In this document: in pieces, positions 9,001 to 21,221 of the stretch
Numbering within the stretch: the first letter of the stretch is position 1
Layout of the letters: each line of letters starts with the position of its first letter
NCBI GenBank assembly: GCA_934463425.1
Contig: CAKSJP010000007.1
Location: 18,813 to 82,812 of the forward strand
Reading direction: 5' to 3'
Length of the DNA stretch: 64,000 bases
From: an uncultured Ruminococcus sp.
Lineage (GTDB): Bacteria > Bacillota > Clostridia > Oscillospirales > Ruminococcaceae
Notes under the pieces: generated by a model
Told to the model about the DNA's origin: nothing
Database searches by the model: none
What the model saw: only the letters and a program-made list of their open reading frames with translations
Program-made: the position numbers and the translations under genes

Positions 9001-12000
9001 TGTCTGCCTTTTCTCCCAAAAGATTGAGACGGGCAAACTTGCCGGCAGCATTGCTTTCCGCCGCATCATATACGATATCTTCGCCAGAACGCCTGCGCTC
9101 TGTGCCGTCCTGATAGATCACCTTTACCGACTGAATGTAGTCTTTTGCGCGCGGATCAACTTTCAGATAATATGCGTCAAAGGAATCCGTCGGCAGATCC
9201 AGGGTCACAGCCACGGTAGCCGCCGTGTTCAGAGAAGCATCCCGCACATAGTTATAGGACTGGTGCTCCTGTCCGGCAAGTGTCGGCTTTGCAGCCGGTA
9301 GGTTGCTTCCGGTATTGCAATACTGACGGAAATCCACCGCAAAAGAACCGATAGACTTATAGCCGATCTCCAGCTCGGAGTTATCGGCACTGTCGCCCCA
9401 CACTCCATTTTCAGAGAACAGATAACCGTCACTGCTGTGCACATGGCCGTCGGAAGCGATATATTCTGTCGGCTGTGCATAATTCTGGCGAATGTGTTCC
9501 AAAGAACTGGACGCAGCAGCATACTTTTTATCTTTGGCAGTGGTGCTGTCCTTATAGAATGCCATTACTGTCGTGTCGAAATACATCTTGGAAACATAAA
9601 TGGCAGTGGTGTCCTTTGCGGTTACGATATACTTGTTGCTGTCATACGTCTCGGTGACATAGCCCTTGGATTCCCGGAAGCCGTCCAGATAGTTATGTGT
9701 ATCTACTTCCAGCGTATCGGTCTTTCCGAACAGAGAATCGTCATAACCGTCAAATTCAATATACCGCTTTTCCGATGCGGATTTGTCCACCAGCTTTACC
9801 AGTCTGCCGTTCAGTTCCACCTGTGTCAGATTTTCGATGCCAAAATCCGGGTAGACTCTGGTCTCCTCATCTCTGGTAAATGTCAATACGCCATTATTAA
9901 AGGTATACTGCTTGCTGGTATCGCTCTCCAGGTGGAATCCTGTCACCTTTCCGGTCTCGTCAGTTTCCGGCAAAAGGGTGATCTGCTGTTCCTTCCCGTC
10001 CGCATCTTTTCCGGTGAGGATAATGTTGTCAAATGCGCCGAACTGATCGATCAGATCTTTATAAATTCGCAGTTCCGTGGTATGGAAACCGGTTTTTGCT
10101 TCTCCCTGCTTTTCATACGGAATCTTAGCAATAATCTGGGTATCATCCAGAACCGAGATTGTCTCATTGGCAAATTCCGCACGCAGCATGAAGTCACGGT
10201 CATACGGAACGCCGAAAATGGTTTCATTTCCGTCCGTGTTGCCCGATGCCGCACGTGTGGATTCTTTCTGATCGTTATAGTAAATATGGGTGTTGACGCT
10301 GAGCGCCGGACGATCCACATGGAATTTTACAGAGGCAGACTTTGCCTGCTTTTCCATCAGCGCATGCTGCGGTGTCACCTTCATCGTTGCAGTCAGGTCA
10401 TCGAACCAGTTACTTGTGCCATAAATGCGCAGTTCCGGTGCGTTGCCCTGTGCCACAGAGAGGTCGCGCTCCAGATCGGCATAGCGGATCTCAACATTGG
10501 CAAGGTACAATCCCTGCGTTTTCCAATCGGACAGGTCGATCACCAGATCGCCGTCTGCATTCTTGGTTGCTTCCAATTCTGCCAGGGAAAAGGTTTTCAC
10601 AGGTGCCGGCCCGGAAACGCCCTCCGGCAGAAATGCAGTCAGCTGGATGCTTTCGATCTTGCCGCTCTTCGCATAGTTGGAAGAGAGGGTCACCTGATCC
10701 GACAGATAGCCCTTTACAATTTTGGCGCCGTCTTTTTCTGTCTTAACGCCAACGCTTTTCAGATCCACGGAAACCACAGACTTTCCTGCCTTGGAATAAC
10801 AGCTATTGGTATCCTTATTTTCCAGCAGGAATCCATAGTACAGACCATCTGCCTTATTGGGCACGGTCAGGCTTGTTTTGCTGCTCTCGTTGGTCTCCGG
10901 TCGATTGGCAGTCGGGGTGATCGTCAGGTTGGTATCCGCCACTTCCATAGTTGCATTAGAACTGGTACGCGACTCAGCATTGATGCTGCCGATCACTTCA
11001 AATTTGGCATCTGCTTTCAGAGAGCCAGTCCAGTCTGTCGAACCGTACAGTTTCAGCGTCAGTTCCTTCAGGTGGTTCAGATCCAAGTTGCCGTATATCC
11101 GCGAGAAAATGATGCGCACACTGCGCAGACGGCGAATGCTTTCCGGCACTTCGTATGTCACAACACCGTTTTCATCTGTCATCAGGACATCCGAAGAAAC
11201 CGTCAGATCCGGTTTAATTTCAGAAAGCGAATCTGCGGTATATGTTGTATTGTTCCAGTCAAACAGCTGGATCTCTTTGATCTCGGCAGCCCTGCCGCTG
11301 CCGACACCCTCCAGAACGATTTTCCGGGTGTCGAAGCCCTCCAGATCCTGGAGGCAGTCAATCGGTTCATTCTTCACACTGTCCATATTCACCTGGAGCA
11401 GTGCATGAGAACTGGTAGAACGGGAATTATTGGTCAGCAGGAACTGATACCATGTCTGCTCTGTCTCGCTGCGGTTGGGCACAGCCAGAGACGGATAGAC
11501 GATGCGTGTGCCGTTTTTATCTGTGACCGTGTGCTGTGTCTCTACGGCTTCTGTTCCATCTTTTCGGATAGCATGCACGCTTGCAGTCAGCTGCGGCAGT
11601 ACCTTAGACACCTCCAAAGTCACAGTAGCTTTCGCCACAGTATCCTCAGCAGTCTGGTCATGAGCGCCAAAGCTGTATGCCGTTTTCAGTTCAGCGTGCG
11701 GCTTGATCGTCTGTTCCGTGGTGGGCGTACCATTGATCTGGATGTAACAGTTGTCATCGCTTGTACTGTCTGTATAAGTGATCTGCTTTTCGATGCGTCG
11801 GAATCCCAGAGAAACACCCAGCAGATAGGACAGCGTGTTGTTCCACGCCGTCTTTGGAATCACCAGATCGCCTTCTGCATTTTTCGTGTACTGCGAAAGA
11901 TCCAACGGCACCTCTTTATCCACCAAATCCTTTCCGGTATAGCCTTTTCCGCGCAGCACAACAGACTGGATGTCTGCATTTTCCAGCAGCGACTTACTGA

Positions 12001-20664: not shown

Positions 20665-20710
20665 GACGACCGGCAGGCTTTTATCTGTATTTTTGCGTGT
20701 TATTTTAAGC

Positions 20711-20748
20711 AAAAAGGCTGCTGCAGCATATGCTGCAGCAGCCTTTTT
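20711..20748. terminator. Perfect bidirectional terminator between PL1 and tRNA-Leu
   Basis: Two 19-nt arms are perfectly complementary, each with AAAAA/TTTTT at the outside. It lies 46 nt after the PL1 stop and 6 nt beyond the tRNA 3' end on the other strand, so it can end both convergent transcripts. Confidence 0.92.
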
Positions 20749-20753
20749 CTCTT

Positions 20754-21077
20754 TGGTGCCGCTGACCGGACTTGAACCGGTACGGTATCGCTACCGAGGG
20801 ATTTTCTCACTACTCTATGTCACCATAGCCATACAAAACTGTATGTTGTAGTCCGGACTTGGTCTTTACCCTATCCTTTCGGACTTAGGTAGTCGGTGTA
20901 AGGTCTCTACACTCACTCTTGCAAGTTAGCACGGCGTTCTGTTTGTGCCTTCGCCGTTTTAGCCGACTTCTACACCACAGATTTCTCTGCGGGCACTCTC
21001 TGCGAACAAATCGCAGACGCACCTATGTGCGTACAAACATCAAAGTCCCTTGTGTCTGCCTATTCCACCACAGCGGC
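20754..21077 (-). tRNA. tRNA-Leu(UAA) interrupted by a group I intron
   Basis: Exon 1 is 21077-21043 (35 nt) and exon 2 is 20805-20754 (52 nt, with CCA encoded), giving an 87-nt mature tRNA of class II size. The acceptor arm GCCGCTG pairs with CAGCGGC. A standard D arm (GGTGGAATAGGC) follows, and the anticodon stem AGGGA pairs with TCCCT around the loop CT-TAA-AA. The variable arm begins CGGTAGCGATACCG, and the T arm is CCGGT-TCAAGTC-CGG. The anticodon is therefore UAA. The intron lies between U34 and A35. Without removing it the anticodon loop cannot form, so splicing is needed for function. Transcription should start from the consensus promoter at 21193-21221. Confidence 0.93.
20806..21042 (-). 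ncRNA. Group I self-splicing intron (IC3-like), 237 nt, in tRNA-Leu(UAA)
   Basis: The intron follows U34 and ends in G, as group I introns require. Visible core: P3 formed by GUAG..GUCGG with CCGACUAC; the conserved GUGUAGAGAC block of the P3-P7 region; a P8 stem with CCUAAG and a GAAA loop; and the GGGUAAAGACCAAGUCC block for P7-3'. Peripheral hairpins include CCGCAGA-GAAA-UCUGUGG (a P2-like stem with a tetraloop), CAUACA/UGUAUG (P9) and CUAUG-GUGA-CAUAG (P9 extension with a GNRA loop). These blocks closely match tRNA introns of Anabaena and Azoarcus as I remember them. I could not define P1 and the guide sequence with certainty, and P7 appears to contain one non-pairing position. There is no homing-endonuclease gene. 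Confidence 0.88.
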
Positions 21078-21192
21078 ATGTTTATTATGGCAGTCTGCCG
21101 TATTGAACAATCATGACCAAATTGCAAGGATTCAAAAAATATGACTGCATGATCTGCATATCATTCAGGCAGCACCGCACTCTAACTTGATA

Positions 21193-21221
21193 AGTATAGC
21201 ATGTTTTTTCCAAAAAGTCAA
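21193..21221 (-). promoter_or_regulatory. Promoter of tRNA-Leu(UAA)
   Basis: On the minus strand TTGACT (21221-21216) and TATACT (21198-21193) are 17 nt apart. The predicted transcript starts about 110 nt before the mature tRNA 5' end, leaving a leader to be removed by RNase P. Confidence 0.8.

Follow-up and report, generated by a model that had tools for sequence, protein, structure and literature searches.

An Intron-Split tRNA-Leu(UAA) in a Ruminococcus-Type Bacterium and Its Probable Link to Integrative Elements That Replace the Resident tRNA

Introduction

The window, by which we mean the whole 64,000-nt stretch of DNA analysed here, carries a tRNA-Leu(UAA) gene split by a group I intron, and the nearest relatives of this intron are found on integrative elements of the Ruminococcaceae that break the resident tRNA-Leu(UAA) of their host and bring an intron-split replacement with them. 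We consider it likely that these features belong together, with a phage-related, IC3-like intron whose split tRNA was spread by integrative elements, and with the window copy as a settled descendant of one of them. What appears to be new is this context of a split replacement tRNA on elements breaking the resident tRNA-Leu(UAA).

Introns at this site of tRNA-Leu(UAA) have long been taken as evidence of an ancient intron. The window intron lies between U34 and A35, the site of the group IC3 intron in the tRNA-Leu(UAA) of cyanobacteria and plastids. That intron is described as present in most cyanobacteria and in plastids (PMC4476775). Reviews and surveys on bacterial tRNA introns treat, in their accessible sections, general cases together with the fMet and Ile2 tRNAs, and they call RF00028, the generic Rfam group I model, unlikely to capture the diversity of these introns (PMC3984707, PMC8450103, PMC11835236, PMC6125680); in those sections the present case is not mentioned. 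A literature search covering partial texts, with most subscription journals outside it, returned no description of a group I intron that splits a replacement tRNA or the tRNA-Leu(UAA) of a Firmicute.

The Split tRNA Gene and Its Host

All three parts of the gene are on the minus strand: a 35-nt 5' exon that runs through U34 and ends in GGGACUU (21043..21077), an intron of 237 nt, UGAUGUUUG..GUAGUGAG, whose last base is G (20806..21042), and a 52-nt 3' exon including the encoded CCA (20754..20805). When the exons were joined by script, ARAGORN called an 87-nt tRNA-Leu with the anticodon UAA, and it called no tRNA on the unspliced gene. The original prediction of a complete 87-nt tRNA-Leu(UAA) made of two exons, with a 237-nt insert after U34 ending in G, was thus borne out, as was its warning that intron-blind gene finders would miss the tRNA. 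A pseudogene reading was dropped, given that the acceptor, the T arm and the CCA are intact. Directly after the tRNA there is a terminator-like hairpin of 17 pairs (20711..20748), reported on the plus strand and near-symmetrical, and about 115 bp upstream of the tRNA lies a promoter-like site on the minus strand, TTGACT-17-TATACT (21193..21221; 10/12, with TG before the second hexamer), the count of such sites in the window being not above that in shuffles.

Among the open reading frames (ORFs) of the window are several for dockerin proteins, for GH9 and GH130, and for a pectate-lyase-like protein, a set that fits a Ruminococcus-type host. The same host had been predicted earlier, and a 96% identical locus in G215, a genome of the R. 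albus family sample, agrees with it, as do the dockerin proteins around the window gene. Among the 24 longer ORFs chosen from the window, UUA makes up 45 of 1140 leucine codons and is present in 19 of the 24. No second complete UAA tRNA-Leu was found in the available assemblies of the six other genomes with a stand-alone split gene (G215, G216, G145, G213, G004 and G005).

Group I Identity of the Intron

The motifs named beforehand were all found, namely P3, P8 with its GAAA loop, GUGUAGAGAC, AAGUCC, and the GNRA loops on P2 and P9.1, and the fold of the window intron had a z-score of -4.79, with 0 of 100 shuffles equally stable. For comparison, 20 window-type introns were aligned (alignment A2) and a 15-helix structure was projected onto them from the window intron. 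On the minus strand of the window, P1 is the pairing of the internal guide sequence GAGUgCC (20992..20998) with the exon stretch GGACUU (21043-21048), and its loop holds two hairpins (21000..21032). It is followed by P2 with a GAAA loop (20976..20991), P3 (5' strand 20963..20968, 3' strand 20891-20896), P4 with the P5 segment (20931..20957, with P4 formed by 20952-20957 and 20931-20936), P6 (20915..20926), P7 (5' strand 20901..20905, 3' strand 20856-20860), P8 with a GAAA loop (20868..20890), and P9.0, P9 and P9.1 (20810..20851, with P9 at 20830-20845 and P9.1, capped by a GUGA loop, at 20815-20828).

Across this structure, 96.2% of the 1402 cells of A2 are paired, and both sides have changed in 41 of 72 pairs, while 0 of 500 shuffles reached any of these measures. 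Sliding the helix partners lowered pairing to 28-42%, a comparison in which the tested structure, having been derived from the window sequence, is favoured over the slid versions. Both-side changes are found in all of the core helices (P3 3/6, P4 3/6, P6 4/4, P7 2/5, P8 3/6), all 20 introns have a U.G pair where the 5' exon ends, and the final intron G is invariant. In the window intron, one P7 pair is a C.A mismatch, and the same pair fails in 5 of the 20 sequences.

In the Rfam check proposed earlier, RF00028 had no match in the window at its gathering score, nothing at E<=5 in positions 20700-21200, and no match at cut-off in any of 19 related loci; in two close relatives the intron scored 26.1 and 25.5 bits against a cut-off of 50 (E 1.6e-4 and 3.0e-4, each for one genome). 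RF00028 is too blunt for window-type introns. By contrast, a purpose-built IC3-like model found the intron at 20847..20970 (minus strand) with 64.7 bits and a rough E of 1.4e-12, as its sole match at E<=10 in the 64 kb. This model was made from 10 introns, three from Alpha-/Gammaproteobacteria-type contigs and seven viral, with no member of the window's 20-sequence Ruminococcaceae set; one of the 10, L221, branches basally in the wider viral clade. It also matched 12 of 14 further loci, the unmatched two (L035 and L187) having short inserts of another kind. With the covariance score, the compensatory changes in the core helices, the U.G pair and the final G, the window insert is confirmed, on comparative sequence grounds, as the group I intron that had been predicted. 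Most likely it self-splices, and would thereby provide the cell's UUA-reading tRNA.

An Unexpected Long-Range Helix

A local P5 hairpin is usual in IC3 introns. The P4 strands of the window intron enclose no such hairpin; in its place, the P5 segment (3' strand ACAAACA, 20940..20946) pairs with intron nucleotides 4-10 (5' strand UGUUUGU, 21033..21039), just past the 5' splice site. In a screen of 39 introns, 16 of which could not be read by pattern and were left uncounted, all 23 readable introns showed this helix, with 6-7 contiguous pairs. It occurs there as 11 distinct sequence pairs, and 0 of 3002 permutations were equally good; in A2, 97.1% of its cells are paired and both sides have changed in 5 of its 7 pairs. 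Five phage introns (L128, L133, L206, L210 and L227) have it too, and at least one intron (L292), judged by eye, has a local P5 instead. Such a helix would couple the splice site with the stack of P4 and P5, and we know of no described intron in which the 5' end pairs over long range with the P5 segment.

We call the window intron IC3-like and not a typical IC3 intron because its P5 segment pairs with nucleotides 4-10. The cyanobacterial and plastid IC3 intron has the same host gene and site and the same core motifs, but the window intron differs from it in the pairing of the P5 segment with the 5' end, in the two hairpins of its P1 loop, and in a lineage that groups with introns of phages and mobile elements and is linked to integrative elements. 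The Azoarcus and Synechococcus pre-tRNA IC3 ribozymes are like the window intron in their P3-P8 layout and in being short and free of ORFs, and unlike it in having a local P5 hairpin.

Integrative Elements Carrying the Split tRNA

In a tblastn search with the integrase of R. albus 8 (genome G001), a tyrosine integrase adjoins a window-type split tRNA in six loci (G001, G270, G220, G423, G299 and contig C2 of G003). In all four of these with enough flank (G001, G270, G220 and G423), a broken 5' half of a tRNA-Leu(UAA) lies 243-276 bp upstream of the split tRNA; the upstream DNA of G299 and of G003 C2 amounts to only 78 and 109 bp. A fifth half is found on contig C41 of G003, which ends 309 bp past the tRNA, before any integrase could show. 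The available assemblies of G001, G003, G220, G270 and G423 yielded no further complete UAA tRNA-Leu, and G299, which also bears the element, has an intact one that we read as a sign of a strain mixture.

The R. albus 8 locus (L296) presents the layout in full. An aldo/keto reductase gene precedes a 12/12 promoter-like site (9215-9243) and the broken tRNA-Leu(UAA) 5' half (at 9254), which ends past its anticodon arm. Between this half and the complete split tRNA-Leu(UAA) (9499-9822) there are about 200 bp containing TTTCTACCA repeats, and convergent with the split tRNA is the tyrosine integrase (9902-11197), beyond which lie C5 methylases, a BpuJI-like nuclease and a MobA relaxase. There is no forward promoter-like site directly before the split tRNA, and given that the sole forward promoter seen is that of the broken resident gene, expression of the replacement seems to start on integration. 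A plasmid search with this element gave no match, and in a phage search with its integrase all matches were below 60% identity. G235 represents a second element type, with a broken half, a different integrase, a helicase, a resolvase, a split tRNA and a methyltransferase; its split tRNA has an intron of another subtype and, by eye, a promoter of its own.

Seven loci have neither a half nor the integrase in their flanks, namely the window, G215, G216, G145, G213, G004 and G005, where the upstream flank is 147 bp in G145 and a run of N at about 249-348 bp upstream could hide a half in G215. Three more loci were left uncounted, two whose contigs end in the intron (L003, L162) and one with only 264 bp downstream (L089). 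The stand-alone split tRNA of G213 (L294, 5560-6049) has a 403-nt intron with about 165 extra nucleotides near the P1 loop.

Distribution and Phylogeny

Relatives were sought by a pattern in which a tRNA-Leu 5' exon is followed by a base other than A, and this gave at least 118 stretches in bacterial and archaeal contigs and at least 120 in viral contigs. Among the matches listed, one script could assign a 3' exon in 162 of 244 sites, the window included, and a second, which paired the acceptor ends and allowed longer inserts, gave at least 168 loci, later and repeated ones included. Inserts between U34 and A35 with pairing exons occur, among the matches listed, in Bacillota, Bacteroidota, Pseudomonadota, Eremiobacterota and viral contigs; inserts at this site are thus widespread, and not all of them are group I introns.

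Several inserts at the same site of tRNA-Leu(UAA) are of other kinds. Fifteen viral loci have tRNA-like or hairpin inserts of 48-103 nt, many of which end in ACCA, with an acceptor-like stem and in some cases a T-loop (GTTCAAG), and these are perhaps tRNAs nested in a tRNA and excised by tRNA end-processing enzymes. Three further viral loci (L126, L147 and L137) have hairpin inserts of 32 and 44 nt, and two Planctomycetota loci (L035 and L047) have 26-nt hairpins that are alike but not identical. In four Nitrospirota-type loci (L057, L060, L061 and L115) the 5' half of the tRNA-Leu is repeated about 144-147 bp before the whole gene, which may be another integration scar.

The window-type intron itself was matched in 10 of 396 genomes of the R. 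albus family, and it is therefore patchy. A class-wide search with the purpose-built covariance model, whose filters lose weak matches, gave 11 places in 9 of 391 genomes, and of these only the R. albus 8 place lies in a tRNA-Leu(UAA) by patterns; introns of the kind modelled are thus rare class-wide. The best relative, G215, shares with the window in blastn and tblastx comparisons the split tRNA (96% identity across the gene), short repeats and scattered weak matches, and has other neighbours.

In a midpoint-rooted tree of 47 introns (206 columns, 18 open forks, cyanobacteria outside the sample), a starred 14-row clade (98/84) unites seven element-linked introns, one of them by its half alone, with seven stand-alone introns including that of the window. 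This clade nests in a starred 29-row clade (99/94) that contains 11 viral introns, and the sampled introns of Pseudomonadota and Eremiobacterota, together with two of the three from Bacteroidota, fall outside it. On this tree, the lineage of the window intron nests among phage introns. The original prediction had left a choice between lateral transfer into the same site and an overlooked wider spread, and each holds in part: inserts at U34|A35 do occur in several phyla, but the window type reaches only 10 of 396 genomes in the R. albus family. Beyond that earlier reader's view lay the place of the nearest relatives on integrative elements that break the resident tRNA-Leu(UAA), and the phage introns deeper in the tree.

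An ordinary group I intron kept by vertical descent and without any mobile link, with the elements having happened to pick up a local tRNA, would agree with the seven loci that have no half or matching integrase, several of which, by eye, have a promoter close before the tRNA. We regard this as unlikely, given that the intron is rare and patchy, that element-linked and stand-alone introns are mixed within one clade, and that the near-identical G215 locus has neighbours unlike those of the window. Still less probable is that the intron came laterally by itself, with cyanobacteria or other bacteria as donors, and homed into a tRNA-Leu gene that was left in place. The insertion site is that of the cyanobacterial intron, and many viral and Bacteroidales inserts among the matches listed are at least 600 nt long, so that a homing endonuclease gene would fit; against this, the Ruminococcaceae elements bring a whole split tRNA as an extra copy beside the broken resident gene, and the nearest non-host relatives are viral on a tree that has cyanobacteria outside its sample. 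The combination of element spread and a phage-related intron accounts better for these observations, and it is supported by the ends of the elements.

Integration into the Resident tRNA

Upstream of the half, R. albus 8 and G270 are identical at 182 of 343 positions (shuffled mean 51%, maximum 54%), and from the half onward at 1857 of 1905. In each of the two, an orphan tRNA 3' half abuts the right end that the elements have in common; on the element side of this end, identity is 358/411 over the nearest 400 bp and 1051/1621 over 1500 bp, and on the host side it is 177/348 (shuffled mean 51%). The common core of attL and attR, read by eye, is 12 bp, ACTTAAAATCCC. Most of the genomes compared are fragmented. 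The attL and attR of R. albus 8 were read from separate contigs, and its assembly has two orphan 3' halves, on C52 and C57. We assigned C52 as the right end because its element side matches that of G270; the half on C57, which has another neighbour, was rejected and seems to belong to another element. A search for an empty site by way of the ABC transporter beside C57 led to three best loci in other species, which were without a tRNA-Leu by patterns.

Joining the resident halves by script gave a tRNA-Leu(UAA) in G001, G270 and G003 alike, and the joined 83-nt tRNA body of G003 is found letter for letter in an intact gene on contig C55 of G299. On a second contig of G299, C215, the right end is occupied, and all 47 nt of its available downstream flank agree with those after the intact gene, so that this assembly holds both an empty and an occupied site, C215 being unlinked to the split tRNA of G299. 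By tRNA-dependent integration we mean a tyrosine integrase, a broken and unrebuilt resident tRNA of the same isotype, a short common core, and an element-borne tRNA of that isotype; all of these are present in R. albus 8 and G270, and part of them in G220, G423 and G003. From the broken halves, the integrase and the common core it follows that the host tRNA is broken by integrative elements, which supply an intron-split one in its place. That the pairs of half and whole genes are instead decayed tandem duplications can be practically set aside: both copies are indeed tRNA-Leu(UAA) with near-identical 5' parts, but flank identity drops to chance at the 5' half and at the 3' half, the same element ends recur in two hosts with an integrase adjacent, G299 has the intact and the occupied site with a common 47-nt downstream flank, and related elements repeat the layout at tRNA-Leu(CAA).

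Related Integrases and a Possible Shielding Role of the Intron

Relatives of the R. albus integrase (E<=1e-60) are present in 102 of 396 family genomes, and we surveyed 30 loci among the matches listed. A split tRNA-Leu(UAA) lies at five of the 30. In three genomes (G380, G199 and G304) a broken tRNA-Leu(CAA) half is followed by a whole unsplit tRNA-Leu(CAA); G302 has the UAA counterpart, with a broken half and then a whole unsplit tRNA-Leu(UAA), and another locus of G380 suggests this arrangement too; in three others (G043, G057 and G124) the tRNA-Leu(UAA) is intact and there is no half. No tRNA-Leu was found by patterns at 18 of the 30, six of these 18 having a tRNA-Ser. With unsplit and split cases side by side among the relatives, replacement tRNAs are seen to recur in these elements. 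Replacement-tRNA elements that have no intron, in which a related integrase accompanies a broken resident half and then an unsplit tRNA-Leu (CAA or UAA), are seen at L373, L378, L381, L379 and G380 contig C114.

The 15-nt core of the anticodon arm is the same in half and replacement in five of six split cases, the exception being G220 with a one-base difference, whereas it differs in four of four unsplit cases (one-sided Fisher 0.024, n=10, the cases being not independent). This contrast is the ground for the idea that the intron shields the replacement tRNA from the integrase, and as support for it is only suggestive. G043 weakens shielding as a rule, because an integrase 97% identical to that of R. 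albus stands there beside an unsplit tRNA-Leu(UAA) with no half, and the intron is therefore not obligatory; the long similarity to the R. albus element starts at the 3' exon, as though a single loss had taken the half, the arms and the intron.

Proposed Mechanism and Comparison with a Known System

We propose that the split tRNA spreads in the Ruminococcaceae as cargo of integrative elements. The tyrosine integrase would insert the element into the resident tRNA-Leu(UAA) at its anticodon arm, and because the attachment sites have only about 12 bp in common, neither resident half is made whole again. The split tRNA of the element, about 245-275 bp inside its left end, would then replace the broken one, with its expression beginning on integration from the promoter of the broken resident gene, and the intron may keep this replacement from being a target of the integrase despite the match of its anticodon arm to the target. 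With the resident gene gone, the split tRNA could no longer be lost, and it would stay as an ordinary gene after decay of the element.

The window copy is probably such a settled descendant of a decayed element. There is no broken half in the window, neither of the two integrases matches anywhere in its 64 kb, and no scanned ORF is an integrase; as neither feature flanks the split tRNA, we do not class the locus as an element showing tRNA-dependent integration, and it is only the tree that points to its element origin.

The closest known system is the tRNA-dependent lysogeny of mycobacteriophages, which has a replacement tRNA with a demonstrated strong promoter of its own (Guerrero-Bustamante and Hatfull 2024, PMC10865867). 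In the main text of that paper the word "intron" occurs only within a reference title. Unlike that case, the Ruminococcaceae replacement tRNA is split by a group I intron, the R. albus 8 replacement shows no promoter of its own, and its carrier has relaxase and restriction genes.

Conclusions

A more far-reaching suggestion, which we put forward tentatively, is that the intron may be a working part of the element, making the replacement unrecognisable to its own integrase while the mature anticodon arm is identical to that of the host, and that repeated replacement followed by element loss might be a general route by which introns reach this site, possibly including the intron of cyanobacteria and plastids. 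The elements offer, in any case, a visible route by which introns can enter a genome and become indispensable, the resident tRNA being destroyed and a split one supplied. They tie a self-splicing-type RNA to integration and to the replacement of an essential gene and suggest a function for the intron as a shield against the integrase, and R. albus 8, which is in culture, makes the system open to experiment. For some rumen bacteria, of course, it also means that a tRNA finder misses what may be their only UUA-reading tRNA.
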